Shown here piece after piece: positions 33,424 through 52,879 of a stretch of 64,000 nt of DNA. Each line of letters starts with the position of its first letter. The stretch's first letter is position 1. Source of the DNA: Deltaproteobacteria bacterium (GTDB taxonomy: Bacteria; Myxococcota_A; UBA9160; UBA4427); NCBI GenBank assembly GCA_002719955.1, contig PBFW01000013.1:50432-114431 (forward strand), read 5' to 3'. Under the pieces are notes generated by a model. The model had not been told where the DNA came from, ran no database searches, and saw only the letters and a program-made list of their open reading frames with translations. The translations under genes were made by a program, and so were the position numbers.

Positions 33424-33445
33424 ATTTCGACATAGATGTCGAAAT
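33424..33445. promoter_or_regulatory. Perfect 10-bp palindrome, candidate TetR operator
   Basis: Arms ATTTCGACAT and ATGTCGAAAT are perfect inverted repeats separated by AG. The element starts six bases after the VOC stop and ends 33 bases before the GTG start of the TetR gene. Perfect 10-bp arms are far beyond chance for a site in this position, so it is most likely the operator of the TetR protein and hence of the methyltransferase/HgcAB-like operon. Confidence 0.75.
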
Positions 33446-33478
33446 CAACTAGACTGCTCCCGAGTTCGAAAGCCAGCC

Positions 33479-34060
33479 GTGCCGAAGATCGTGGACGCCG
33501 ACAGACAGCGCGACGAGATCCGCAATGCCGCAAGGGTCGTCTTTGCGGAGCGCGGGGTGCGTGGTACGGGCCTTGCCCACGTGGCCGCGGCCGCGGGGAT
33601 GGGGCGTTCGAGCCTTTATCACTACTACCCTGACAAGGATTCCCTGCTCGGCGATCTCGTGAAGGAGATGCTCGATCAGGAGCTCGCGATGTTTCGCGAA
33701 TGCTTGCGCAGCCCCGAGCCCCCCATCGCCCGGCTCGAAAACCTCGCGCGAGCCTGTGCGGCGCTCTTCCCCGAGTGGGCGCTCTTCGGACGAATGATCC
33801 TCGACCTCCGGCTCGCTGATGTGCAATTCCTGAAGAGAACGTTTCGCGCCCTGCGGCGCGAACTCGCTGCTGTCCTCGCCGAGGGCCAGGAGAACGGGAG
33901 CTTTGCCGCAGAGCTGAACGCGGATGTGACGGCATCGCTGCTGATCGGGACGATCGATGGGCTGCTCCTGCAATATTTCATCGACCCCCGTGCGCTGCCA
34001 AAGCCCGCAGAGATCGCGGACACGCTCTTTCTCACCACCCGGAGGATCGTCGAGAAATGA
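33479..34060 (+). CDS. TetR regulator heading the HgcAB-like operon
   Basis: A 193-residue TetR protein starting at GTG 33479. The HTH lies at residues 14-58 (VVFAERGVRGTGLAHVAAAA, then GRSSLYHYYPDKDSLLGDL). The ligand domain ends with VTASLLIGTIDGLLLQYFID. Its stop overlaps the ATG of the methyltransferase gene (ATGA at 34057-34060), so regulator, methyltransferase and corrinoid-protein genes form one translationally coupled unit. A perfect palindrome lies 33 bases before the start, consistent with self-repression. The signal it senses is unknown. Confidence 0.9.
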   Translation: MPKIVDADRQRDEIRNAARVVFAERGVRGTGLAHVAAAAGMGRSSLYHYYPDKDSLLGDLVKEMLDQELAMFRECLRSPEPPIARLENLARACAALFPEWALFGRMILDLRLADVQFLKRTFRALRRELAAVLAEGQENGSFAAELNADVTASLLIGTIDGLLLQYFIDPRALPKPAEIADTLFLTTRRIVEK

Positions 34061-34710
34061 GTTCCCTGGCCCTGATGCGCTGGCTCGAAGGAAGCCCGGA
34101 ACGCTACGACAGAGGAATGCGGGCGCTCACCTTCGGCCGGGTCGATCGCCTCCACGCGGCAGTGGCCGTCGCGGCCGTTCGAACGCCGGGCGACGCTGTG
34201 CTCGAGATCGGATGTGGGACCGGCAGCGTCACCACCCTGTTGTTGGCGCGCGGGGCCCGCGTCACCGCGTTCGATCAGGCCCCGGAGATGCTCGAGCAGG
34301 CGCGTGCTCGTTTCGCGCCGAACGATCCGGTCGAATGGATCGAGCGAACCGCCTCGGAGATCGATGCGCTTCCCCGAGCCGCCTTTCAGTCGGTCGTGTT
34401 GAGCCTGTGTTTGTCGGACATGTCCTCGAGCGAGCGCGCATTCGTGCTGCGCGAGGCCGCCCTGCGCCTCGTACCCGGCGGCCGCCTCGTCGCCGCCGAC
34501 GAGGTGCGCGCGTGCGGATTGCCTCAGCGAATGCTGCAACGTCTGTGGCGAATCCCGCAGGTGGCGCTCGCCTGGCTGCTCGTGGGTGCCGTATCGAGCC
34601 CGATCCCCGACCTGGCGAGCGAACTCGAAGCCAGCGGCCTCGTCGTCCGAGAGAGAGACCAGTGGCTGTTGGGCACATTGGCGCTCGCCGTGGCGGAGCG
34701 CCCGGAATGA
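34057..34710 (+). CDS. Class I SAM-dependent methyltransferase
   Basis: A 217-residue Rossmann-fold methyltransferase. Motif I is VLEIGCGTGSVTTLLLARGA (residues about 48-67), motif II ends at AFDQAPEMLEQAR, and motif IV/V lie around FQSVVLSLCLSDMSSSERAF and RLVPGGRLVAADEV. It belongs to the UbiE/type-11 group. The ATG overlaps the TetR stop and its own stop overlaps the next ATG (34707-34710), so it is made together with the HgcA-like protein. A role in supplying or removing a methyl group in connection with the corrinoid protein is suggested by that coupling but is an inference. Confidence 0.87.
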   Translation: MSSLALMRWLEGSPERYDRGMRALTFGRVDRLHAAVAVAAVRTPGDAVLEIGCGTGSVTTLLLARGARVTAFDQAPEMLEQARARFAPNDPVEWIERTASEIDALPRAAFQSVVLSLCLSDMSSSERAFVLREAALRLVPGGRLVAADEVRACGLPQRMLQRLWRIPQVALAWLLVGAVSSPIPDLASELEASGLVVRERDQWLLGTLALAVAERPE

Positions 34711-35837
34711 CGTTATTCGCGAGGCTGGAAAGCGCCACTCGCGAGGTCTGGCAGACCGCCTTTCGCCTCGTTCCCTGGCCCACCAAAGCCGGCCTGCGCT
34801 CGGTCGGCACACCCGACGAAGCGAGCCCCGTGCTGGTGACCTGCAATTACGACCTCACGGTGCGCCGTCTGTTGAAGGCGCTCGCAGGCTGCGACGCCTG
34901 GGTGGTGGTCGCCCCCACCCGCGGTATCAACGTGTGGTGCGCAGCAGCGGGGGGGCATATGGGCAGCCATCAGGTGGTGAGTGCACTCAAAACGTCGGGC
35001 GTGGCCGATCGCGTTGACCACCGCGACGTGATCCTTCCCCAGCTCGCCGCGACGGGTGTCTTGGCGCTCGATGTCTTTCGCCGCAGCCGCTGGCGAGTCC
35101 GCTTCGGTCCCGTCGCGGCGTCCCAACTGCCCGCCTACCTCGCTGCGGGGGCGGGCAAGGGTGAGAAGACCGAGGCCATGCGCCGCGTGACCTTCCCGGC
35201 GAGCGACCGCATGCAGATGGCGGCTTCCTGGGCGGCGCCCGCATCCATCGTCTTCGGCGGCCTCGCACTCCTCTTCGAGCCCGCCTGGGCCTGGCCGCTC
35301 TGTTTACTCGTCAGCGTCATGGCGATCGCGGTCTTCGCGATCTTCGATCGCCTCGGCGCGCATCGGAAAGCGATCCTGGCTGTCGCCTCGACGACCGGAG
35401 CGCTCAGCATCACCCTCCTCTTCGGCGGGGGGGGCGTCGCCGCAGCCGTCGCGATGGCCGCGGCTCTCTCGATGGCCGCCGCCCTGACCTTCGACTACGA
35501 GGGCACCACGCCGCTCGAGGGGAGCGGCCATTTTGAAGGGCGAGCGTGGACAATCACGCTGGATACGGACCGGTGTGAGGCGATTGACCGGTGTTGGGAG
35601 GTGTGCCCCAAAGGCTGCTTCGAAAAGCTCGAGGGCAGGAACAAGATCGAACTCGCCCACGAGGATCGATGCATCCGCTGCGGCGCGTGCGTCGTGCAGT
35701 GTCCCCAGGACGCCCTCTTCTTTCAAGATTCGGACGGGGCGCGCATCGAGCCGGACGTGATCCGCCGTTTCAAGCTGAACCTATTGGGTCAGCGGTCGGT
35801 CGATTCGTCGTCCTCCGACGCCGGCGCGGGATCGTGA
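34707..35837 (+). CDS. hgcA: HgcA/HgcB-like fused corrinoid-ferredoxin membrane protein
   Basis: A 376-residue protein from ATG 34707. Residues 40-165 match the HgcA corrinoid-binding domain: PVLVTCNYDLT, TRGINVWCAA with the cap-helix Cys78 (lower axial cobalt ligand in HgcA), HRDVILPQLAATGV, FGPVAASQLPAYLAAG and MRRVTF. Residues 170-262 form about four to five membrane helices as in HgcA. Residues 280-335 are an HgcB-like ferredoxin: one complete cluster (C322/C325/C328/C332) and one with C290, C296, C300 and isoleucine 293 where the second cysteine is expected. The cap motif reads NVWCAAAGG instead of NVWCAAGK. HgcA and HgcB are normally separate; they methylate mercury. The function of this fused variant is open. 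Confidence 0.82.
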   Translation: MTLFARLESATREVWQTAFRLVPWPTKAGLRSVGTPDEASPVLVTCNYDLTVRRLLKALAGCDAWVVVAPTRGINVWCAAAGGHMGSHQVVSALKTSGVADRVDHRDVILPQLAATGVLALDVFRRSRWRVRFGPVAASQLPAYLAAGAGKGEKTEAMRRVTFPASDRMQMAASWAAPASIVFGGLALLFEPAWAWPLCLLVSVMAIAVFAIFDRLGAHRKAILAVASTTGALSITLLFGGGGVAAAVAMAAALSMAAALTFDYEGTTPLEGSGHFEGRAWTITLDTDRCEAIDRCWEVCPKGCFEKLEGRNKIELAHEDRCIRCGACVVQCPQDALFFQDSDGARIEPDVIRRFKLNLLGQRSVDSSSSDAGAGS

Positions 35838-37061: not shown

Positions 37062-38333
37062 TCAGCAACGCCTCGCTTCGGCCTCCGGATCGATTCGGTA
37101 TCGGATCGGCATCGACTTGATGCCCCCCACGCTGCTCGACCGCAGTCGTTCGACGGACCCCGCCGGCGCGATTTCGTCGAAGCGCCCGACCAGCTCTCGC
37201 AACATCACCCGCAACTCGAGCCGCGCCAGATTCGCTCCCATGCAATAGTGCTCGCCCACACCGAGAGCCAGATGGGGATTCGGGTGGCGACTAATATCGA
37301 AGCGAAAAGGATCTTCGAAGACGCGCTCATCTCGGTTCCCGGACGCGTAGAAGAGCGCAAGGGTTTCACCCGCCCGGATCTTCTGGCCCCCGATCTCGAC
37401 GTCTTCGACCGGTGTCCGGGCCATCTGGACCACCGGCGTGGACCAGCGAAGCACCTCTTCGGTGGCCCGCGTGACGGCCGAGGGGTCCTCGGCGAGCATC
37501 CGCCATTGGTCGGGATTCTCGAAGAAGCCCTGCATCCCACCGCTCAGCGCATTACGGGTGGTCTCCGTCCCGCCAACGACGATGAACAGACAATAGGAAG
37601 TGAGCTGATGCGGCGTGAGGGGGGCTCCGTCGATCTCGGCGCGGGTGAGCACGCTCACCAGATCCTCGCCATCGCCCCCGCGACGATCATCCGTCAACTC
37701 GCCGAAATAGGCATAGAGTTCTGCGGAAGCTCGCAGACGCGTCTCGTGGGCCGTTTCATCGGGCCTCTGATATTGCGGATCGGTCGCCCCGACGACCGCA
37801 TTCGCCCAATCCGAGAGAAGCCCCCAATCGCTGCGGGGCAGGCTGAGCATCCACGCGACGACGGCCAACGGAAGCGGTGCCGAAACCTTCTCGACGAAAT
37901 CGCATTCGCCCTCGATCGCCTCCTGCGCGAGGTCGTCGATGATCTCGCGTGCGAGGTCGGAAACCTCGGACTCGATCGCCCGCATCCCGCGCGGCGTGAA
38001 GCGGCGCGCCAACAGTTCACGGAATTGGCGATGCTGCGGGGGATCCATATGGATCATCGTCTCGGGCTCGCGCTCGTCCTCACTTGCGTAGTCCGCACCC
38101 ACCACGATCTGGAATCTCGGACGATTCGAAAAAAGCCGCGGTCGGCGGGAGACCTCGACGATGTCTTCGTGGCGGGTCAGAGCCCAGAACGGGTAGTCGG
38201 GTCCTTCGAAATAATAGACGGGCGCTTCGCGCCGCAGCCGACTCCACGTCTCGTGGGGATAACCGCTCTCGGCGTAGAGACCGGGATCGATCAGCTCCGC
38301 CCCTGCCAGATCCGCACCTGCATTCCGCGTCAT
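37062..38333 (-). CDS. Cytochrome P450
   Basis: A 423-residue soluble bacterial P450. The I-helix oxygen-binding motif is VVGGTETTRN (residues 252-261), the K-helix ExxR is EVLR (293-296), and the heme-binding loop is LALGVGEHYCMGANLARLE with the thiolate ligand C364. Also present are the HMDPPQHRQFRELL C-helix region and FANDERVFEDPFRFD-type meander (here RDERVFEDPFRFD). Members in this group hydroxylate terpenoid, steroid or fatty-acid substrates using ferredoxin. No ferredoxin partner is adjacent. It precedes a SnoaL-like gene on the other side of a short gap, and neither is clearly co-transcribed with the nitrilase. Confidence 0.92.
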   Translation of the reverse strand: MTRNAGADLAGAELIDPGLYAESGYPHETWSRLRREAPVYYFEGPDYPFWALTRHEDIVEVSRRPRLFSNRPRFQIVVGADYASEDEREPETMIHMDPPQHRQFRELLARRFTPRGMRAIESEVSDLAREIIDDLAQEAIEGECDFVEKVSAPLPLAVVAWMLSLPRSDWGLLSDWANAVVGATDPQYQRPDETAHETRLRASAELYAYFGELTDDRRGGDGEDLVSVLTRAEIDGAPLTPHQLTSYCLFIVVGGTETTRNALSGGMQGFFENPDQWRMLAEDPSAVTRATEEVLRWSTPVVQMARTPVEDVEIGGQKIRAGETLALFYASGNRDERVFEDPFRFDISRHPNPHLALGVGEHYCMGANLARLELRVMLRELVGRFDEIAPAGSVERLRSSSVGGIKSMPIRYRIDPEAEARRC

Positions 38334-38403
38334 TCAAGCCCTCCCGATGAGCTTCGATGGAGTGTGGCGCGTTCGAGACACCCGGCGTCCATCAAGCGGC
38401 CGA

Positions 38404-38817
38404 TCATGTGCCGAGGGTGCTGTCGACGGCTCCGCCGTATTCCCAATACGCCCGAACCGACCAGACCTTGCCCTCGTCGTTCACCCGGTAGATCACGATC
38501 GCCTCGACCTCGAGCGGCGGCAGTCCAGGCACCTCGTTGGTCGAATCGACGAGAAAGGCACATTCTTTTCCACGTGGCTTCGCCTTTACGCATTCCACCG
38601 TCATCTTGCCCAAACCAATACTCGCGTCCCAGAACTTCGCGAGATCGGATTTGCGATGTCCCTGACCGGCGGGATCGAGAGGCGAAACCCCCACCGGATC
38701 CTCGAAGAGGCAATCCTCTGAAAAGAGGTCAATCCAGTCTTGCTTCCGCCCGGTACTCATGAGACGAAAACTGTCGAGCCCCGCTCGCTGGGCAGGCTGA
38801 TCCTCGGGAATTTCCAC
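38404..38817 (-). CDS. SnoaL/NTF2-like small protein
   Basis: A 137-residue protein with the cone-shaped NTF2-like layout: an N-terminal helix, WIDLFSEDCLFEDPVG, then a mixed sheet ending VNDEGKVWSVRAYWEYGG. This is the pattern of SnoaL/ketosteroid-isomerase-like proteins. GTG 38817 is used as start because GGAGGAGCAGAC lies directly before it; a later ATG (MSTGRKQD) would cut a conserved helix. Such proteins isomerise or cyclise steroid or polyketide intermediates, but many have no known activity. It lies upstream of the P450 gene on the same strand, 70 bases away, suggesting a shared transcript. Confidence 0.75.
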   Translation of the reverse strand: MEIPEDQPAQRAGLDSFRLMSTGRKQDWIDLFSEDCLFEDPVGVSPLDPAGQGHRKSDLAKFWDASIGLGKMTVECVKAKPRGKECAFLVDSTNEVPGLPPLEVEAIVIYRVNDEGKVWSVRAYWEYGGAVDSTLGT

Positions 38818-38870
38818 GTCTGCTCCTCCGCCTGACTTCCCTTTATAAAATCCCGTTCCCCTCTTGTCGA

Positions 38871-39848
38871 TCAGGGGCCGTGAATCAGCTTGGTGTACTC
38901 CGAAGCGATCAGCTCTGATGTTTCCGAGAGGCGATTGGCGCGCCAATCGCGCCACGGGAAAATATTCTCCCAGCGATGAAGCTTCTCGAAACTCACCGTG
39001 GCCGAAATCAATTCCTCGCTCGGTCCGGCCACCACGTAGGGTCGTGCGAAGGCAGGGAAATCTGGGCCCGCGATCAGGCTATTGCCGGCATAATTCCCGC
39101 TACGTCCCTCGTCGACGGCACCCGCGGCATAACTTTCGGGTCGATCAGAACCGGCGACCTGATTCGCGCTGACGGCGTAAACGAAATTCTCCTGTGCACG
39201 GGTGCAGGTGACGGCGACCATATTCTCGCGTTTGTGTGGCCCGTCGAAGGATGCGCAGGTGTTGAGGATCACGCGCGCACCCTTGAGCGCGAGCAAACGG
39301 GTCGGCTCCGGATTGAACCAGAAGTCGTAACAGATGATCACACCGACGGGGCCGAAACGCGTCTCGAAGATGGGCAATGACTTGCCGGGCTCGAAGGTGA
39401 TGCCCTCGGTGACCCACGGAAGCGTGCCCAGATGGAGCTTGCGGTAAGTCCCCTGGATGCCTTCGGGGCCCACGAAGGCGGAGGCGTTGTAGAGGATCCG
39501 AGGGTCCCGCGCGTCGCGCTCGATCAGGCCAAAGGCCACATAGAGGTCGAGTTCTCGAGCCAGTTCGGCGACACGTTCCGTCGAAGGTCCGGGAACGGTC
39601 TCCGCGAGATCGGCGTGGTAATCGCATTCAGTCGCGCCTTCGCGGCAGGGCGTGCAGCCGCCGCAACCGGTCAGCGCCTCCTCCGGAAAGGCGAGGATCT
39701 CCACGCCCTGTGAGGCGGCCTCTCGCATATTTGTTTCGATCTTTGCGAGATTGGCCGCCTTGTCTCCTGGAACACAGGTGAAATTGACGGCGCCGAGGGT
39801 CACGGTCTTCTCGTAGCCGGAATATCGCTCGGGGATCATTGGGGGCAC
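38871..39848 (-). CDS. Nitrilase-superfamily carbon-nitrogen hydrolase
   Basis: A 325-residue nitrilase-fold hydrolase. The catalytic triad is present: glutamate in ILAFPEEALTG, lysine in GTYRKLHLGTLPW and the nucleophilic cysteine in VGVIICYDFWFNPEPTR. A cysteine-rich insertion (CGGCTPCREGATECDYH) near residues 62-78 is unusual for the family and could bind a metal. Members hydrolyse nitriles or amides, or act as N-carbamoylases. ATG 39848 or the slightly later ATG three codons on is the start. It stands upstream of the SnoaL-like and P450 genes and may be the first gene of that unit. Confidence 0.88.
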   Translation of the reverse strand: MPPMIPERYSGYEKTVTLGAVNFTCVPGDKAANLAKIETNMREAASQGVEILAFPEEALTGCGGCTPCREGATECDYHADLAETVPGPSTERVAELARELDLYVAFGLIERDARDPRILYNASAFVGPEGIQGTYRKLHLGTLPWVTEGITFEPGKSLPIFETRFGPVGVIICYDFWFNPEPTRLLALKGARVILNTCASFDGPHKRENMVAVTCTRAQENFVYAVSANQVAGSDRPESYAAGAVDEGRSGNYAGNSLIAGPDFPAFARPYVVAGPSEELISATVSFEKLHRWENIFPWRDWRANRLSETSELIASEYTKLIHGP

Positions 39849-40102
39849 TCCTTTCGACCTCCAGGTTGAGATAGATCGCTGGACGTCTGCGCCATTCTAG
39901 TGCGTTCGATGGCGCTTGTGAGCCGCTGCGGTCGGGTCCGATGCTGAGCGCGTCGATCTCGCCTCCTGCGACCAGACGACGGAAATCACGAGGCCCCTTT
40001 TTTTCGGCTTCGATCGTCGTCATGATATCGACCAGGGTGTCGCCAGCCCGGAGGACGACCACCGGGAATCCATCGGATACGTGACGGGGAGGGGCTTCGT
40101 TC
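39849..40102. other. Divergent intergenic region with a doubtful small ORF
   Basis: This 254-base region separates the nitrilase gene from the FAH gene and should hold both promoters. A minus-strand open frame beginning at 40104 (ATG overlapping the opposite FAH start) reads GFPVVVLRAGDTLVDIMTT and then loses coding character near 39900. It could be a truncated gene, but no family is recognised and the start overlap is odd. No clear palindrome or terminator was seen. Confidence 0.25.
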
Positions 40103-41026
40103 ATGAGTGATTACCGCCTGTTGACCTACGAAGGAGAGGAGGGACCGACCGCTGGGATCCTGATCGGAGATCGCATCCATCCGACCGGGACCGTTCTGGG
40201 GTCGAGCGCTCCCGCGCATACCATTCTGGACATCCTCGATCGATGGGACGCTTCTCGTCCCCTGCTCGAGGCGGCCGCCGCTTCTCCTCCGAGCGGCGGG
40301 AAGGCACTCGATTCGGTTCGTCTGCTGGCACCGCTGCTCTATCCCCCGACGGTCTACTACACGGGTGCGAACTACTGGGACCACGTCCTCGAGATGGCCG
40401 AGCTGAACCGAGATGCTGACGGCAACCTGCCCTCGACGGAAAAACCCGCGGACCCCTGGCTCAATATCAAGGCATCCCAGAGCACGGTCATCGGTCCTGG
40501 CGCACCGATTCGGATTCCGGCTTTCTCGAAGATGCTCGACTGGGAGGCGGAGATCGCGCTGGTCGTGGGTCGACCGGGTCGGAACCTGACTCCGGCGAAC
40601 GCACTCGATTGCCTGGCGGGCATGGCGATCGGGAACGACTTGTCGGCGCGCGACTTCGTGAAGCGGGAGAACTCGATCTTCGTCTGGGATTGGCTGGCCC
40701 AGAAATGTTTCGATGGCTCGACACCGCTGGGCCCCTGGATCACGCCCCTCTCCGCGATCCCCGACCCGAGCGCGATGTCGATCCAGCTGTGGGTGAACGA
40801 TGAGCTGAAGCAGGATTCGAACGCCTCGCAGCTGGTACACGATTTTTCGGAGCTTCTCGTTTACCTGTCGCTGCACGTCACGTTACAGCCTGGGGACGTT
40901 ATCTTGACCGGGACGCCCGCTGGAGTGGGCTTTCCGACAGGGGACTTCCTCCAGCCCGGAGATATCGTTCGCATCGCGGTCGAGGGCTGCGGTGTGCTCG
41001 AGAATCCGGTCGTAGACGGAGTGTGA
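40103..41026 (+). CDS. Fumarylacetoacetate hydrolase family protein
   Basis: A 307-residue FAH-family enzyme. The C-terminal catalytic domain shows the family motifs: YYTGANYWDHVLEM, SKMLDWEAEIALVVGR with metal-binding acidic residues, AGMAIGNDLSARDF, and GDVILTGTPAGVGF. All expected metal ligands (Glu, Glu, Asp) appear present. The family cleaves C-C bonds of dicarbonyl ring-cleavage products or acts as hydratase/isomerase on them. It starts an operon with an extradiol-dioxygenase-type protein, a MaoC hydratase and an acyl-CoA synthetase, which fits hydrolysis after meta cleavage of a catechol-like ring. Confidence 0.9.
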   Translation: MSDYRLLTYEGEEGPTAGILIGDRIHPTGTVLGSSAPAHTILDILDRWDASRPLLEAAAASPPSGGKALDSVRLLAPLLYPPTVYYTGANYWDHVLEMAELNRDADGNLPSTEKPADPWLNIKASQSTVIGPGAPIRIPAFSKMLDWEAEIALVVGRPGRNLTPANALDCLAGMAIGNDLSARDFVKRENSIFVWDWLAQKCFDGSTPLGPWITPLSAIPDPSAMSIQLWVNDELKQDSNASQLVHDFSELLVYLSLHVTLQPGDVILTGTPAGVGFPTGDFLQPGDIVRIAVEGCGVLENPVVDGV

Positions 41027-41030
41027 TTCG

Positions 41031-41936
41031 ATGGAGATTCGCGGAATCGGTTATCTAGGCTTGAATGAAACAGAGCTTGCCCCGTGGCGGGAATTCGGTG
41101 AGGACCTACTCGGCTTCATGCCCGTGCCGGCGGAGGATTCCGGGCGGCCCGAGAGCGACTGCGCTCTCTTTCGAATCGACCATCGGAACTGGCGTCTAGC
41201 GGTGCATCGCGCCGAAACGCCGGGCCTCGCCTATCTCGGATGGGAACTTTCCGACTGCGAGGCCTTCGAAGACGCCCGGGATCATCTCGTCTCCTGCGAC
41301 ATCACGCTCGACACGACCGTCGCCGCAAAGGATCGGGGCGTGAGCGCCCTGGTCCGTTTCGTCGACCCCTACGGACATGCGCACGAACTCTTCTACGGGG
41401 CACCGACGAACCTCGATCGACCCTTCGTGTCGCCCGCCGGCGTGACCGGTTTCGAGACGGACAACGGCCTGGGACATGTCCTCTTCGCCGTGCCCGACGC
41501 GCACAAAGCCGAAGACTATTACGCGCGGGTGCTCGGCATGAAGACCACCGACCGAATGGATATGGGCGGCGGCAAGCGCACGATCTTCATGCGCTCACGG
41601 GTGCGCCATCACATGCTCGCGCTCACCGATGTGCTGCCCCAGCACGGCTTCGGGCACGTGATGTTCGAGACCCGGCAGATCCGGGACGTGGGGAGCGCGT
41701 GGGATCGGGTCCAGGCCGCTGAAACACCGATTTTCATGTCGCTCGGGCAGCATGCCAATGACCCGGCGGTGTCCTTCTATGTCGAGACGCCCTCGGGCAA
41801 TGGCATCGAGTTCGGCTGGGCAGCCATGCTGATCGACGAGGCGCGCTGGATGGTGCGCGAAATCGGCCCGAACGAACTCTGGGGACATCGCGGCCCACAG
41901 ATGGACGAGATCGAAGCCGGGGGAGGCCGGGGATGA
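41031..41936 (+). CDS. Extradiol ring-cleavage dioxygenase, VOC type I (BphC-like)
   Basis: A 301-residue two-module VOC protein of the 2,3-dihydroxybiphenyl 1,2-dioxygenase type. The C-terminal module has the metal triad: histidine in NGLGHVLFAVPD, histidine in HGFGHVMFET and glutamate in GNGIEFGWA. The N-terminal module (residues 1-125, FVDPYGHAHELFYG at its end) is the structural half. The enzyme should open a catechol ring next to the hydroxyls using Fe(II) and O2. It begins five bases after the FAH stop, and its own stop overlaps the MaoC ATG, so the group is a single operon. Confidence 0.88.
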   Translation: MEIRGIGYLGLNETELAPWREFGEDLLGFMPVPAEDSGRPESDCALFRIDHRNWRLAVHRAETPGLAYLGWELSDCEAFEDARDHLVSCDITLDTTVAAKDRGVSALVRFVDPYGHAHELFYGAPTNLDRPFVSPAGVTGFETDNGLGHVLFAVPDAHKAEDYYARVLGMKTTDRMDMGGGKRTIFMRSRVRHHMLALTDVLPQHGFGHVMFETRQIRDVGSAWDRVQAAETPIFMSLGQHANDPAVSFYVETPSGNGIEFGWAAMLIDEARWMVREIGPNELWGHRGPQMDEIEAGGGRG

Positions 41937-42835
41937 CGATGGACCTTTCGCGGGTGGGCTTCGAATCGGAGCCCAAACGCATCACCTGGGCAGCCAGCGA
42001 TTGCAGCCTCTACGCGCTCTCCCTGGGCGCAGATTTCGGCGAACTTCCCTTCGTCGCAGAGGAAGCCATCGGTCATCCTCAGAAGGTCTTCCCGACCTTC
42101 GTTCTGGCCGGTGTCATGTCGGACGAGTCGGCCTCGTGGACCCATCCCGGTTTCCATACCGGCGACTACGATGTCCATCAGATCGTTCATGGTGAGCAGC
42201 GCCTCGAACTCTTCGCTCCCGTCGAGCCGAAGGGCGATGTCATGGTGCGGACACGGGTCGCGGGGATCTACGACAAGGGATCCGGAGCGTTGGTCGAATT
42301 GGTGGTGCACGCGGATGATCGGGCCTCGGGGACGCCGCTCTTTGCGGCCGTGACCTCCCTCTTCATCCGCGGAGAGGGTGGGTTCGGCGGTGAGCGGGGC
42401 CCGGCGCGACCCCAACTCGACCCGCCGAGTCGTGCGCCGGATTTCGAGGTGACCTACTCGACGCTTTCGGTCCAGAGCCTCCTCTATCGGCACGGGGGCC
42501 ATGATCCCCACCCGATTCACGTCGACCCCGAGGTGGCACGCCGCGGGGGCATGAAGGGACCAATCTTGATGGGTCTGAACACCCTGGGGATGGCCGGGCG
42601 CGCGGTCCTGCACACGGCCGGTGATTCGGAACCGGGCCGGCTCCGCTCGATCGAGGGACGCTTCGCCTCCCCTGCCTATAACGGGGACACGCTCACCACC
42701 CAGATGTGGACCGGCGACGACGTCGGTACCCAGGACGGAGAGGACGACGTCGTGCTCTACCGCGTCCTCAGCCATGAGGGCGCGGCGCTGCTCGACCGCG
42801 GCCGCGCGGTCTTCGCGCGGGATGCGTGGACATGA
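41933..42835 (+). CDS. MaoC-family hydratase (enoyl-CoA hydratase 2-like)
   Basis: A 300-residue double-hotdog protein starting at ATG 41933 (ATGA overlap with the dioxygenase) or ATG 41939. The C-terminal half carries a hydratase-2-type motif YRHGGHDPHPIHVDPEVAR, in which the usual DxNPxHxD reads HDPHPIHVD: histidine replaces asparagine, while the D and H catalytic pair are kept. The following GPILMGLNTLGMAGRAV matches the family. It should hydrate a trans-enoyl-CoA in side-chain or ring-fragment beta-oxidation. Its stop overlaps the acyl-CoA synthetase ATG. Confidence 0.87.
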   Translation: MTMDLSRVGFESEPKRITWAASDCSLYALSLGADFGELPFVAEEAIGHPQKVFPTFVLAGVMSDESASWTHPGFHTGDYDVHQIVHGEQRLELFAPVEPKGDVMVRTRVAGIYDKGSGALVELVVHADDRASGTPLFAAVTSLFIRGEGGFGGERGPARPQLDPPSRAPDFEVTYSTLSVQSLLYRHGGHDPHPIHVDPEVARRGGMKGPILMGLNTLGMAGRAVLHTAGDSEPGRLRSIEGRFASPAYNGDTLTTQMWTGDDVGTQDGEDDVVLYRVLSHEGAALLDRGRAVFARDAWT

Positions 42836-44373
42836 TCGACGAGCGGGATCTCTGGGCGCTGATCGAGGCGCGCGCAAATCTGACGCCGGATCGAACGCTC
42901 CTGATCGACGAGCGATCGCAGGAGATTGGATTCGCCGCCTTTCGCGACCGGGCCGAACGGGTCGCGGCCGGGCTTGCGGAGCTCGGGGTGACGAGCGGTG
43001 ACCGCGTTTCGTGGCAGCTTCCCACGTGGATCGAATCGGCGGTGCTGATCGGAGCGCTGGCGCGGCTCGGCGCGGTGCAGAATCCGATCCTGCCGATCTA
43101 TCGAGAGCGCGAGCTGCGCCATATCCTCGGCGAAGTCCAACCGAAGCGGCTCGTCGTCCCCTCGGTCTGGCGCGACTTCGACTACGCCAAGCTCGCTCGG
43201 ACCGTCGTCGAAGGCAGCGAAACGACGGTCCTGATCTGTGATCGCACGCTTCCAGAGGGCGATCCCGCCGCACTTCCCCGAATCCCATCGGAGGGACGCG
43301 ACGCCAACGCGATCCGTTGGATCCTCTACACCTCCGGAACCACATCATCGGCAAAGGGCGCCCTGCACAGCGATGCCTCGATTGCCGCAGGCTCGATCGG
43401 AGTCTGCGAGTCGCTGCGGATCGAGCCGGAGGATCGCTGGGCGATCCCCTTCCCCGTGACCCATATCAGCGGCATCGGAATGTTGATGGTCTTTCTGATG
43501 ACCGGGTCGAGCGGCGCGTACGTGGAACAGGTCGGCGAGTCGACGCCGAAGTTGTTGGGATCACTCGGGTGTACCTATGCGGCGGGCGGGACGCCCCTCG
43601 TGATCCGCTATCTCGAAGAGCAGCGACGCCATCCCACCCGCCCACTCTTTCCCAAACTCAAGGCCGCAATGGCGGGGGCCGCTCCCAAGCCCCCTCAGCT
43701 GCACGGTCAGGTTCGGGATGAAATGGGCGGGCTCGGCGTCGTGTCGTGTTATGGGTCGACCGAGGTGCCCTTCATCAGCGTGAGCCTGAGCGACGACGAC
43801 GATGAACGACTCGCTCGCACCGAAGGACGGGCGAATCGAAGGGCCGAGCTCCGAATCGCCGACGAGGAGGGTCGCCCGCTCCCTTCCGGAGGCATCGGGG
43901 AGATCCGGGTGCGCGGGCCACAGGTTTGCCGGGGCTATCTCGACGTGTCACTCGATCGAGACGCATTCGACACCGACGGCTTCTTTCGGACCGGAGATCT
44001 CGGTTGGGCCGATGCGGAGGGCTACCTGACGATCACGGGACGACTCAAGGACGTGATCATCCGCAACGGCGAAAATCTCTCGGCAAAGGAAATCGAGGAT
44101 GTCCTCTTCGATCACGAGGGCATTGCCGAAGCCACGGTGATCGGGCTCGCCGACCTCACGAGAGGCGAGCGATGCTGCGCCGTCGTCGTTCCTCGCAGCG
44201 GCGCGGAGATCGGGCTGGAGGGCATCGCCCAATTCTGTCGCGACGCCGGGCTCGCCAGCCAGAAGATTCCGGAGCAGTTGGAGTTCGTCGAGGCCCTCCC
44301 CCGCAACGCGAGCGGCAAGGTCCTCAAGCACGAACTCCAGGCTCGTTTCGAAACGCTGCCGAGGGGCGGATGA
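42832..44373 (+). CDS. AMP-dependent acyl-CoA synthetase/ligase
   Basis: A 513-residue ANL ligase starting at ATG 42832, overlapping the MaoC stop. Motifs are the P-loop YTSGTTSSAKG, CYGSTEVPFIS (A5), FRTGDLGWADAEGYLTITGR (A7-A8) and the catalytic lysine in NASGKVLKHEL close to the C-terminus. The aromatic/fatty-acid ligase profile agrees with activation of an aromatic or terpenoid acid before degradation. It is the last gene of the operon and is followed by 106 bases to the next gene, where a new transcription unit begins. Confidence 0.9.
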   Translation: MIDERDLWALIEARANLTPDRTLLIDERSQEIGFAAFRDRAERVAAGLAELGVTSGDRVSWQLPTWIESAVLIGALARLGAVQNPILPIYRERELRHILGEVQPKRLVVPSVWRDFDYAKLARTVVEGSETTVLICDRTLPEGDPAALPRIPSEGRDANAIRWILYTSGTTSSAKGALHSDASIAAGSIGVCESLRIEPEDRWAIPFPVTHISGIGMLMVFLMTGSSGAYVEQVGESTPKLLGSLGCTYAAGGTPLVIRYLEEQRRHPTRPLFPKLKAAMAGAAPKPPQLHGQVRDEMGGLGVVSCYGSTEVPFISVSLSDDDDERLARTEGRANRRAELRIADEEGRPLPSGGIGEIRVRGPQVCRGYLDVSLDRDAFDTDGFFRTGDLGWADAEGYLTITGRLKDVIIRNGENLSAKEIEDVLFDHEGIAEATVIGLADLTRGERCCAVVVPRSGAEIGLEGIAQFCRDAGLASQKIPEQLEFVEALPRNASGKVLKHELQARFETLPRGG

Positions 44374-50207: not shown

Positions 50208-52879
50208 AGCGAACATCGAAAGAGTTGCAGACCACTCCGCGCCAGCTCCCGATCTCCGCAGCGCTCACATTGTTAGTTCTACTGACGACCGGCGTATTTG
50301 CCATTCTAGTGGGGGGCTGGGTACTCGTTCGCGATGCCAGTGTGCTCCAGCAGCAGCATGAATTGATAGCGGATCGCGAGCTTGATGTTCGTCGCGACGC
50401 CTTGCTCACCTTTATCGACGATCGCTTGGCTGTCCTACGCGACTACGCCGCCTTTCCGCTCCTGAGCCAGACCGTGATGCAGCCCGAAGCACTTCGCGCC
50501 GATCTCGTAGACTTCATGGATCCGCTGCTTCTGCTCGGCCAGAGGCAGCAGCTGGTCTTACTCGATTTTGAGGGTCGCATTATCTACGCAACTCGTTCTG
50601 ATCCGCCATTCGGCTTGGATGGGAATTTCGATCTCGAAGATGTACTCGAGATGGGGGCTCAGAAATACGTCGACGTAGTACAGGAGGACGGACGACTCTA
50701 CTGGCACCTTGCAGTTCCGGTGATGCATCATGACGTGACAGAGGGTGCGCTCTTGACGCGCATCCCGCTCGACGATGCGCCCCTCGATCCCGTCGCTGAT
50801 GATAAGGAGAGCGGCCGTTCGCTGCAGTTGATGAGATACGGATCGCTTCTCGCCAACTACGGTCATGCCGAAGTTGGTTCGCAGCATCAGCTCCCACTAA
50901 TCGAAGCGGTCGGCTTGGAGCTTCACTATCGAGTCGATTCCTCGGACACGCGAGCTCGGCAGCTGGGCGGCGTCCTCGAGATGATTGGTATCAGCCTCGC
51001 GCTCCTGATCACGATCGTCCCCATCGCAGCGCAGATCGCTCGTCGCGCGATCGCATTACCCTTGGAAGATCTACGTAGCCGCACCTCCCATCTGGCAGTG
51101 GGGAAGATCTACGAAACACTCCCGGAAACACAGAGGATTCGGGAGGTTCATCGACTGGCCGCAGACTTCAACGCGATGGCCAAGAAGGTCCGAAAGCGCG
51201 AAACGTCGCTGCGAGAGATCCAGGGCGAGTTGGGGAAGCGCGTGAACCGCCGCACACGCGAACTCGGCAAGCGTCAACGAGAACTTGAGCGCCGCCAGGC
51301 CGAACTCAGAACGATCAATGCCGAACTCGAGCGATCGCAGCACGCAGCGGAGGCCGCAAATACGGCCAAGAGCGCGTTCCTCGCGACGATGAGTCACGAG
51401 ATTCGGACGCCGATGACGGCGGTGGCAGGGTATGCGGATTTGCTGATGCGTTCCGCACACGAGTTGCCAGACCGATGTGTCGACTGGGTCAAGCGCATCG
51501 GTCTCAACACGGAACATCTCGTTTCATTGATCGGAGACATCCTCGATCTATCGAAGATCGAGGCGGGGCAGATGGTGCTCGAGCTAGAGCCCTGTGATCC
51601 CGTTCTCGCGATCGAAAGTGTGGTGTCGGTTATGGAGGTCGCTGCACAGGAAAAAATGATCGCTTTGAATGTGGAATACGTCGGGCGGGCCCCCGAGACG
51701 CTTCATGCGGATTCGTTGCGGCTGAGACAGATATTGCTGAACCTGGTCGGCAATGCTGTGAAGTTTACGGACGAAGGTGAGGTTCGCATCTGTGTGAGGG
51801 AGGTTTCGGGGACCCAGTTCGAGGGGAGAGAACTCGCCTTCGAGATCTCTGACACGGGAATCGGAATCAAGGAGGATCAACTCGATGAGATATTCGCACC
51901 CTTTACCCAGGTCCATCCTGTTCACCATTCCGAGCGCGGTGGAACAGGGCTGGGCCTGAATATCTCTCGCAGGCTGGCGTGGCTTCAAGGGGGAGAAATC
52001 AGCGCGATGTCCGAATTCGGGATGGGGAGCACCTTCACGTTGAGGCTGCCGGTGAGGGATGACGCGGAGTGGCTCTCGGCGGAGACACGGCTCAGCAAGA
52101 AGACGGCCGACAGAGGAGAGGAGCGAAAACAATCGATTCGGGGGGCTCGTGTACTCGTCGCGGACGACAATTCAGACAATCGGGAGATCGTGGCTTTCCT
52201 CCTGCAAGACATGCATGCGGAGGTCGATATGGCTTGCGATGGAGCAGAGGCCCTGAGGGCCGTTCTCTCAGGGAGGCGCTCCGGTTGCGAATACGATCTC
52301 GTATTGATGGACATGCGAATGCCAGTCATGGATGGCTATACCGCCACACGCGAGCTGCGAGCAGCTGGCGTGGAGACATCGATCGTCGCTCTCACAGCAC
52401 ATGCGATGTCCGAAGACGTTGCGAAATGTCAAGAGGCGGGATGTGATGCTTATCTCGCCAAGCCGATCATCCCCAGTCTCTTCAGATCCGCAGTCTTGCA
52501 TCACGTTCGCCGCCGCGTCGATGTTGATCGAGCAGCGTCCATCGACGAGCCACGACGATCAGAGGCTCGCGACGAACCGGGGGGGATCGAATCGGATCTG
52601 AGTGATGATCCCCGGTTTGCCCCCATCCTACGCAGGTATATAGAGAGCCTTCCAGATTCCATCGAATCTCTGGAAGATGCCTGGTCTGCCCGTGACTCCG
52701 AGAAACTGAGGGCTGAACTTCACATGCTTGCCGGGACCGGTACGAGCTATGGCTTCGAGGAGATTACGGTCGAGGCCCGTCATTGCGAGGGGATGATACG
52801 CCGCGGCGAGGAACTGACCGAACTCGATGCCCCCCTCGCCGCGCTTCTCGATCGACTGCGAGCCATTGTGTCAGGATGA
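50204..52879 (+). CDS. Hybrid sensor histidine kinase (HisKA-HATPase-REC-Hpt)
   Basis: An 891-residue membrane kinase. A first helix (residues 20-43), a periplasmic sensor region (44-255) and a second helix (257-278) precede a HAMP-like linker and a coiled coil (330-385). HisKA carries H398 in FLATMSHEIRTPM. The ATPase has N-box LLNLVGNAVKF, SDTGIGI and GGTGLGL. A receiver follows with D703 (LVLMDMRMPVMDGY), and an Hpt domain with H840 in LRAELHMLAGTGTSYGFEE. All phosphorelay residues are intact. The start overlaps the binding-protein gene by four bases. The relay probably ends on the REC-GGDEF protein. Confidence 0.92.
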   Translation: MKRTSKELQTTPRQLPISAALTLLVLLTTGVFAILVGGWVLVRDASVLQQQHELIADRELDVRRDALLTFIDDRLAVLRDYAAFPLLSQTVMQPEALRADLVDFMDPLLLLGQRQQLVLLDFEGRIIYATRSDPPFGLDGNFDLEDVLEMGAQKYVDVVQEDGRLYWHLAVPVMHHDVTEGALLTRIPLDDAPLDPVADDKESGRSLQLMRYGSLLANYGHAEVGSQHQLPLIEAVGLELHYRVDSSDTRARQLGGVLEMIGISLALLITIVPIAAQIARRAIALPLEDLRSRTSHLAVGKIYETLPETQRIREVHRLAADFNAMAKKVRKRETSLREIQGELGKRVNRRTRELGKRQRELERRQAELRTINAELERSQHAAEAANTAKSAFLATMSHEIRTPMTAVAGYADLLMRSAHELPDRCVDWVKRIGLNTEHLVSLIGDILDLSKIEAGQMVLELEPCDPVLAIESVVSVMEVAAQEKMIALNVEYVGRAPETLHADSLRLRQILLNLVGNAVKFTDEGEVRICVREVSGTQFEGRELAFEISDTGIGIKEDQLDEIFAPFTQVHPVHHSERGGTGLGLNISRRLAWLQGGEISAMSEFGMGSTFTLRLPVRDDAEWLSAETRLSKKTADRGEERKQSIRGARVLVADDNSDNREIVAFLLQDMHAEVDMACDGAEALRAVLSGRRSGCEYDLVLMDMRMPVMDGYTATRELRAAGVETSIVALTAHAMSEDVAKCQEAGCDAYLAKPIIPSLFRSAVLHHVRRRVDVDRAASIDEPRRSEARDEPGGIESDLSDDPRFAPILRRYIESLPDSIESLEDAWSARDSEKLRAELHMLAGTGTSYGFEEITVEARHCEGMIRRGEELTELDAPLAALLDRLRAIVSG

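Follow-up and report, generated by a model that had tools for sequence, protein, structure and literature searches.

What does a single protein that joins HgcA-like and HgcB-like parts do in a bacterium that carries oxygen-dependent enzymes nearby, given that HgcA and HgcB are known for mercury methylation? The question is raised by a 64,000-nucleotide stretch of DNA from Deltaproteobacteria bacterium (assembly GCA_002719955.1, contig PBFW01000013.1, forward-strand positions 50,432 to 114,431; the window in what follows), in which a preliminary description had placed a fused HgcA/HgcB-type corrinoid protein with an altered cap motif at 34707-35837. We find that the gene belongs to a module for corrinoid methyl transfer that is real, conserved and so far uncharacterised, and that is encoded in a TetR-linked operon together with a methyltransferase, CpaM. 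We propose, with about even confidence, that CpaM and the fused HgcA-HgcB-like protein would carry a methyl group from S-adenosylmethionine (SAM) to a corrinoid, for which Cys78 is the likely ligand, and from there to an acceptor; the latter would probably be a soft metal or metalloid and be methylated otherwise than by HgcAB.

A fused HgcAB-like protein of a named family

The open reading frame (ORF) at 34707-35837 (plus strand) runs uninterrupted from an ATG to a stop codon and encodes 376 amino acids. It matches the NCBIfam model NF043039, "HgcAB-like fusion protein", with 386.6 bits (cut-off 285) over model positions 2-349 of 350, and Pfam places a CdhD domain at residues 23-143 (E 2.3e-12) and 4Fe-4S domains within residues 281-346, bearing out the fused corrinoid protein described before. 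The corrinoid-fold domain (residues 22-147; 34770-35147) contains the cap motif NVWCAAAGG (residues 75-83; 34929-34955) with the predicted cobalt ligand Cys78 (codon 34938-34940), and the HgcA hallmarks reported earlier, TRGINVWCAAAGG around Cys78 and the HRDVILPQL block, are both present. In an AlphaFold model (predicted local distance difference test [pLDDT] 89.4, predicted template modelling score [pTM] 0.87), the membrane helices suspected previously appear as four long helices (165-190, 192-215, 220-238 and 243-262). This predicted membrane part (residues 165-262; 35199-35492) is followed by an HgcB-like dicluster ferredoxin part (residues 282-340; 35550-35726). Corrinoid binding is predicted on the basis of the fold match.

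Because a homologue search returned 2205 proteins at E<=0.001, including the query, among 7998 candidates scored, the frame is not a chance one; the best match besides the query shows 77% identity over 99%. Both the family and its pairing with CpaM already have names in NCBIfam, and the window copy adds one more member. The cap motif, whose description as altered might suggest an isolated case, is common to a large named family. A literature search found no paper on the function of CpaM or of the HgcAB-like family.

To survey relatives, a genome collection with one genome per species (84,980 species) was scanned with two conserved peptide patterns, one of which holds the cap motif; 98 relatives were recovered, and the 80 best of them were retained as related loci. 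Hosts among these 80 include Myxococcota and other "Deltaproteobacteria" metagenome-assembled genomes, Acidobacteriota, Chloroflexota and Aminicenantes, among others, as well as Heimdall- and Baldrarchaeota and one Desulfurococcales archaeon. Two actinomycete isolates, Actinocrispum wychmicini DSM 45934 and Rhizocola hellebori NBRC 109834, also carry relatives. HgcAB-like proteins over the cut-off occur in 23 of 282 genomes of the window's phylum; six further genomes from its genus have none. In the one actinomycete order searched, the family was found at E<=1e-40 in one of 397 genomes, the centre genome itself.

In PMC7438021, fused HgcAB proteins, including that of Kosmotoga pacifica, served as paralogous roots, and PMC7573106 gives 80% similarity over a short region for the Kosmotoga- and Methanococcoides-related fused proteins. 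The Kosmotoga pacifica fused protein (P0137) scores 480.5 bits with NF043039 and groups among the HgcAB-like rows in our tree; the published fused HgcAB proteins and NF043039 are therefore of the same kind, at least for Kosmotoga. Compared with this protein and with NF043039, the window protein shows no structural difference. What distinguishes the window copy from the rest of the family is its own, mostly Myxococcota clade with a TetR gene and a TTTCGACA palindrome.

CpaM is a nearly obligate partner

Directly upstream on the plus strand, 34057-34710 encodes a class I SAM-dependent-type methyltransferase, the predicted methyl loader. It lies next to the corrinoid protein and scores 245.1 bits (cut-off 180) with NF043040, "corrinoid protein-associated methyltransferase CpaM", a family named by association only, whose model name gives no substrate. 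Since both gene junctions, TetR/CpaM and CpaM/HgcAB-like, are ATGA start/stop overlaps, the three genes look translationally coupled.

Co-occurrence with the methyltransferase, a point the preliminary description had raised, proved very strong. In 74 of the 80 related loci, CpaM precedes the HgcAB-like gene in the same orientation, with domain ends at most 303 nucleotides (nt) apart by hidden Markov model (HMM) domain coordinates. Among the six loci lacking it, four have at most 200 nt of contig and one has 571 nt; L094 is a true miss. Moreover, in-frame CpaM-HgcA fusions are found in nine of the 80 loci. Eight of them are from Chloroflexota, with a separate HgcB-like ferredoxin ORF next in seven (not found in L104), while the ninth, L093, holds CpaM, HgcA and ferredoxin all in one frame, a three-module chain that was modelled with a pLDDT of 88.4 and a pTM of 0.86.

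The pairing also holds at the level of genomes. In the window's phylum, CpaM exceeds the cut-off in 22 of 266 genomes, 21 of which also hold an HgcAB-like protein over the cut-off; in the 22nd (G233), the HgcAB-like gene is cut by a contig end. As to the remaining two genomes with an HgcAB-like protein over the cut-off, CpaM of G182 reaches 177.7 bits and is cut by a contig start, and G266 has CpaM in L012. CpaM was found neither in 14 control genomes nor in six loci of the HgcA or corrinoid iron-sulfur protein (CFeSP) type, for which about 1.5 kb upstream were covered. Clustering of neighbours (ORFs within 8 places, 99 loci, 11 loci having dropped out owing to over-long ORFs) revealed no regular partner besides CpaM and regulators; the commonest neighbours after the CpaM cluster are TetR proteins (13 loci), ABC ATPases (10) and response regulators (7). 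As CpaM almost always accompanies the HgcA homologue and is joined to it in several fusions, we infer that it is best read as a dedicated methyl loader of the corrinoid protein, and the methyl-donor half of the proposed route is well supported by this comparative evidence.

An ArsM-like arsenic methyltransferase was considered for CpaM and rejected: cysteine columns above 30% comprise only that of the SAM motif and one variable column, and the CpaM score is over its cut-off. Several loci have further features around the pair. A URO-D family protein (L093:11082-12140; 222.6 bits) is encoded directly 3' of the three-module chain; the URO-D fold also occurs in corrinoid methyltransferases. At L090:1-1248, ArsR-type and CpaM sequences share one 415-amino-acid open frame, which could reflect a fusion or upstream read-through. 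ORFs resembling AmmeMemoRadiSam radical-SAM or MEMO proteins, named by eye, are found close to the pair in opposite orientation in L079, L081, L082 and L086 (Heimdallarchaeota) and in L005 and L006.

Residues shared with HgcA and HgcB and residues missing

The window protein resembles HgcA/HgcB in its corrinoid domain, a cap cysteine in N(V/I)WCA, a membrane part and a dicluster ferredoxin. Unlike HgcA and HgcB, it is fused, has a three-cysteine cluster A, lacks the cap lysine, Cys73 and the tail cysteines, comes with a methyltransferase gene of its own and falls outside the HgcA rows in trees; in addition, its model has four long membrane helices, whereas HgcA is described with five (PMC7305189). 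It stays below the NCBIfam cut-offs for HgcA (NF040863; 158.7 versus 275) and HgcB (NF040864; 51.9 versus 99), the first CxxCxxCxxxCP motif being incomplete at I293.

A cysteine occupies the position of Cys78 in 88 of 89 rows (88 distinct), the remaining row being a gap in a fragment, and G82 is found in 86 rows of the alignment, which has 88 rows lettered at Cys78; as the loci were partly retrieved with a search pattern that contains the cap motif, this conservation is partly by construction. In 28 rows off the search pattern, the cysteine is kept and the lysine is missing. Indeed, the earlier observation of NVWCAAAGG instead of NVWCAAGK marks a consistent difference, the lysine being present in 28 of 28 HgcA rows versus none of 74 HgcAB-like rows.

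In the ferredoxin part, the first motif reads C290-x5-C296-x3-C300, with I293 in place of the second cysteine, as had been stated; this is a lineage trait, as just 19 of 77 lettered rows have a cysteine in that column. The second motif is complete, and its four cysteines are all kept in 76 of 76 rows. A published map gives C20, C23, C26 and C60 as the cluster A ligands (PMC7305189). Mapped on these, the window protein retains three of four, and a three-cysteine cluster A is therefore predicted. No cysteine follows C332, so that the protein has neither a Cys73 equivalent nor a C-terminal cysteine pair; likewise, 60 of 76 rows have no cysteine beyond the second motif. Notable exceptions are L090, L091, L094 and L095, which contain CxCPTC motifs C-terminal to the ferredoxin (in the first three, the tail is cysteine-rich as well), and four loci from Heimdallarchaeota with a CC close to the C-terminal end.

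These residues bear on the reading as a true mercury methylator, that is, a divergent HgcAB making methylmercury (MeHg) from Hg(II). The cap cysteine and the placement on the HgcA side of the phylogeny speak for it, as do the HgcB-like extra cysteines past the ferredoxin in L090, L091, L094 and L095 and the proximity of two actinomycete copies to merA. Against it stand the scores below the HgcA and HgcB cut-offs, the missing cap lysine and the missing Cys73 and tail cysteines, which are needed for mercury methylation, as well as the best MerA match in the window's own genome, 399 bits for a cut-off of 454. In addition, two cultured carriers of fused HgcAB, Methanococcoides methylutens (PMC5893877) and Pyrococcus furiosus (PMC5038027), produced no MeHg. 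Because Cys73 and the tail cysteines are missing and these two organisms are MeHg-negative, mercury methylation, one of two functions put forward in the preliminary description, is weakened and now looks improbable. On the sequence evidence, the window protein probably does not belong to the established type of mercury methylators; the other suggestion, a related protein that transfers methyl groups via a corrinoid to a different acceptor, is preferable.

Phylogenetic placement

Two trees were computed, first one of 109 rows, which left out nine fragment loci (L044, L047, L059, L060, L062, L097, L100, L106 and L108), and then a careful one of 81 rows, which left out 16 HgcAB-like and 12 HgcA rows. 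In both trees, the window protein lies on the HgcA side, far from the CFeSP subunits, which form a separate clade (100/100; 81-row tree). The HgcA rows, a thin sample of 24 of the 120 listed matches of one query plus four loci, form one clade with support 99 (28 rows, 109-row tree) and 100/99 (16 rows, 81-row tree), and the window protein is outside it, within a mostly Myxococcota clade of 26 rows (support 98, 109-row tree). Rooting on the distant CFeSP renders the HgcAB-like rows paraphyletic, but a single clade for them is not rejected (approximately unbiased test, p-AU 0.525; 81-row tree).

A placement among the acetyl-CoA synthase corrinoid subunits, which would have told against the preliminary description, was thus not found, and such a subunit is ruled out by score (77.3 versus a cut-off of 306 for the CFeSP large subunit), by the missing N-terminal part and by the tree. 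The CFeSP large subunit (AcsC/CdhE) carries a barrel and has an N-terminal Fe-S domain, whereas the window protein aligns with its C-terminal domain only; the cap cysteine is absent from CFeSP (PMC7305189). True HgcA/HgcB membership is likewise ruled out, several defining features being missing.

A small third lineage on the HgcA side, here called "HgcA2" (100/100), includes L030 (G198) and L117 (G093). It has the cap lysine and scores below the HgcA cut-off (167 versus 275 for L030). In L117, the next gene encodes an HgcB-like ferredoxin, in which a Cys73-type cysteine is present and a CC tail is missing.

A metal-linked clade and the acceptor

A clade of seven rows (support 99/91, 81-row tree) is linked to metal genes in all its members. 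ArsR/SmtB regulators are encoded upstream in L091, L094 and L095 (68-82 bits, cut-off 55), and in L090 a regulator of this type shares the open frame of CpaM. In L098 (Actinocrispum wychmicini), L102 (Rhizocola hellebori) and L103, Pfam identifies a P-type ATPase 25-61 nt downstream; the ATPases of L098 and L103 are 67-68% identical to that of L102, and the one scanned further, that of L098, is of the heavy-metal type (TIGR01525, 502 bits). Both isolates thus hold CpaM, the HgcAB-like protein and the ATPase together. In addition, MerA (585 bits in L098, 565 bits in L102; cut-off 454) is encoded 6.1 and 5.0 kb from CpaM, respectively, adjoined by MerB-like ORFs below the MerB cut-offs, and ArsR regulators are also found there. 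L103, on a shorter contig, has a GntR-ArsR open frame, and no MerA was seen. No publication on the mer link of the actinomycete copies was found in a limited literature search. True hgcAB, too, often has arsR 5' of it (PMC10349881).

Because this related clade has ArsR/SmtB regulators, heavy-metal ATPases and merA nearby, a metal(loid) acceptor is likely, and the putative acceptor in the window's clade would most plausibly be a soft metal or metalloid. The same neighbourhoods could suggest a reverse system, in which the corrinoid protein removes methyl or alkyl groups from organometals or other donors and CpaM serves in cofactor repair or disposal: the MerB-like ORFs and merA near the two actinomycete copies suggest detoxification. 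As these ORFs stay below the MerB cut-offs and a SAM enzyme is usually a donor, we consider such a system very improbable.

A TetR gene and a conserved palindrome

The first gene of the operon (33479-34060, plus strand; TetR_N 1.4e-13) encodes a TetR-family regulator and overlaps CpaM at its stop codon. In front of it, at 33425-33444, lies the perfect palindrome TTTCGACATAGATGTCGAAA, that is, TTTCGACA-N4-TGTCGAAA, a predicted TetR operator that overlaps a promoter-like site at 33427-33455. Among the 27 loci of the window's own clade with sufficient room, a TetR gene is found 5' of CpaM in 20 (13 by HMM, 7 by eye); none was seen in L034, L036, L042, L046, L048, L049 and L092. In 18 of these 27 loci, the palindrome, with up to three mismatches, is found no more than 1.1 kb 5' of CpaM, a count that is partly circular because the consensus was drawn from the window and a few loci beforehand; the background of 0 sites in 372,127 bases is not. 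The genome itself contains one perfect site, two with one mismatch and five with two mismatches, and none of the reversed pattern. As the perfect site is unique and both one-mismatch copies fall inside open frames, TetR probably acts mainly on this operon, with a wider regulon being possible.

This regulation bears on a further alternative, in which the acceptor is organic, such as a lipid, an isoprenoid or a small electrophile, and is C- or N-methylated by a membrane system made up of CpaM and the corrinoid protein. TetR regulation is typical of small organic effectors, and the operator is conserved; furthermore, the window has a catabolic neighbourhood, the protein has no metal-holding cysteines besides those of the Fe-S clusters and Cys78, and the solved folds nearest to CpaM include Coq5 and phosphatidylethanolamine methyltransferase, although unspecifically, among 1820 matches. 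However, no such enzyme emerged as a regular partner in the neighbour clustering, the related clade is metal-linked, and a Cys-ligated corrinoid is known to act on Hg. We therefore regard an organic acceptor as possible but doubtful.

Host genome and neighbourhood

The oxygen-dependent gene set noted before is present: a cytochrome P450 (37062-38333) and a BphC-like VOC protein (41031-41936) are encoded nearby, and the genome (94% complete, 8.6% contamination) also encodes a member of the heme-copper oxidase family (COX1, 429 bits). The latter indicates a terminal oxidase, and the host likely respires oxygen, judging from its gene content. This setting is not unique to the window, as Actinocrispum wychmicini and Rhizocola hellebori, which also carry the pair, are aerobes. 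MetH (1675 bits) indicates B12 use; for de novo B12 synthesis, cobyrate-synthase-type GATase gave only matches of 30 bits. POR domains of 2-oxoacid:ferredoxin oxidoreductases are present and could supply low-potential electrons. At 37062-44373, the window has a catabolic-looking set of P450, nitrilase-type hydrolase, FAA hydrolase, BphC-like VOC protein and AMP ligase.

Discussion

The proposed route would lead from SAM via CpaM and the Cys-ligated corrinoid to the acceptor. The ferredoxin part would first bring the cobalt to the Co(I) state, drawing on low-potential electron donors, for example 2-oxoacid:ferredoxin oxidoreductases. CpaM would then bind SAM and pass the methyl group to Co(I), as the near-obligate pairing and the gene fusions suggest. 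By homology to HgcA, the Cys78 thiolate would ligate methyl-Co(III) from below, yielding a methyl-anion or radical donor, and finally, in the most tentative step, the methyl group may be transferred to the metal(loid) at the membrane face. TetR is predicted to repress expression at the palindrome at 33425 until an effector appears.

Several points weigh against this proposal. As to the acceptor, the metal-linked clade is not the window's clade and was singled out after the first tree had been seen; outside it, metal genes are few (an ArsR-like ORF in L100, P-type ATPases at 1.6 kb in L110 and at 5.3 kb in L043). No metal genes were seen among the window neighbours scanned, no MerA over the cut-off is found in the genome, the tail of the window protein lacks cysteines, and no TetR cysteine is conserved in 80% of 25 own-clade rows. 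As to CpaM, its absence from L094 concerns a member of the metal-linked clade, G091 shows a CpaM-like match below the cut-off (113 bits) without an HgcAB-like protein over the cut-off, and the folds nearest to CpaM include Coq5 and the phosphatidylethanolamine methyltransferase named above. No biochemistry for CpaM or the HgcAB-like family was found in the literature search. Moreover, HgcAB needs no CpaM for SAM-dependent methylation (PMC11588087); therefore, CpaM may have another target, such as the product or a lipid, and could thus modify the acceptor or product instead of loading the corrinoid.

According to the same 2024 report, purified HgcAB takes its methyl group from SAM, not from methyl-tetrahydrofolate, through Cys-ligated methylcobalamin. 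A near-obligate, sometimes fused SAM-type methyltransferase fits this finding of SAM feeding HgcAB, and with the CpaM pairing the methyl-loading step becomes separable and testable. For surveys that count fused HgcAB proteins as mercury methylators, an overcount is likely.

A bolder extension, which we consider rather unlikely, would add CpaM-HgcAB-like to HgcAB and ArsM as a third organometal system, a corrinoid machine of oxygen-respiring cells that is fed by SAM and has a Cys ligand. The metal-linked clade would then be part of mercury-resistance clusters of aerobic actinomycetes (MerB-like, MerA, ArsR, CpaM, HgcAB-like, heavy-metal ATPase), and the window's TetR clade would be a re-tasked branch; if true, HgcA-type carbon-mercury chemistry would run in aerobes. 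With a homologue of the mercury-methylation enzyme encoded near merA in culturable actinomycetes, a mercury role outside anaerobes is directly testable, and the related HgcAB-like family offers a clean route to both the origin and the original function of HgcA.
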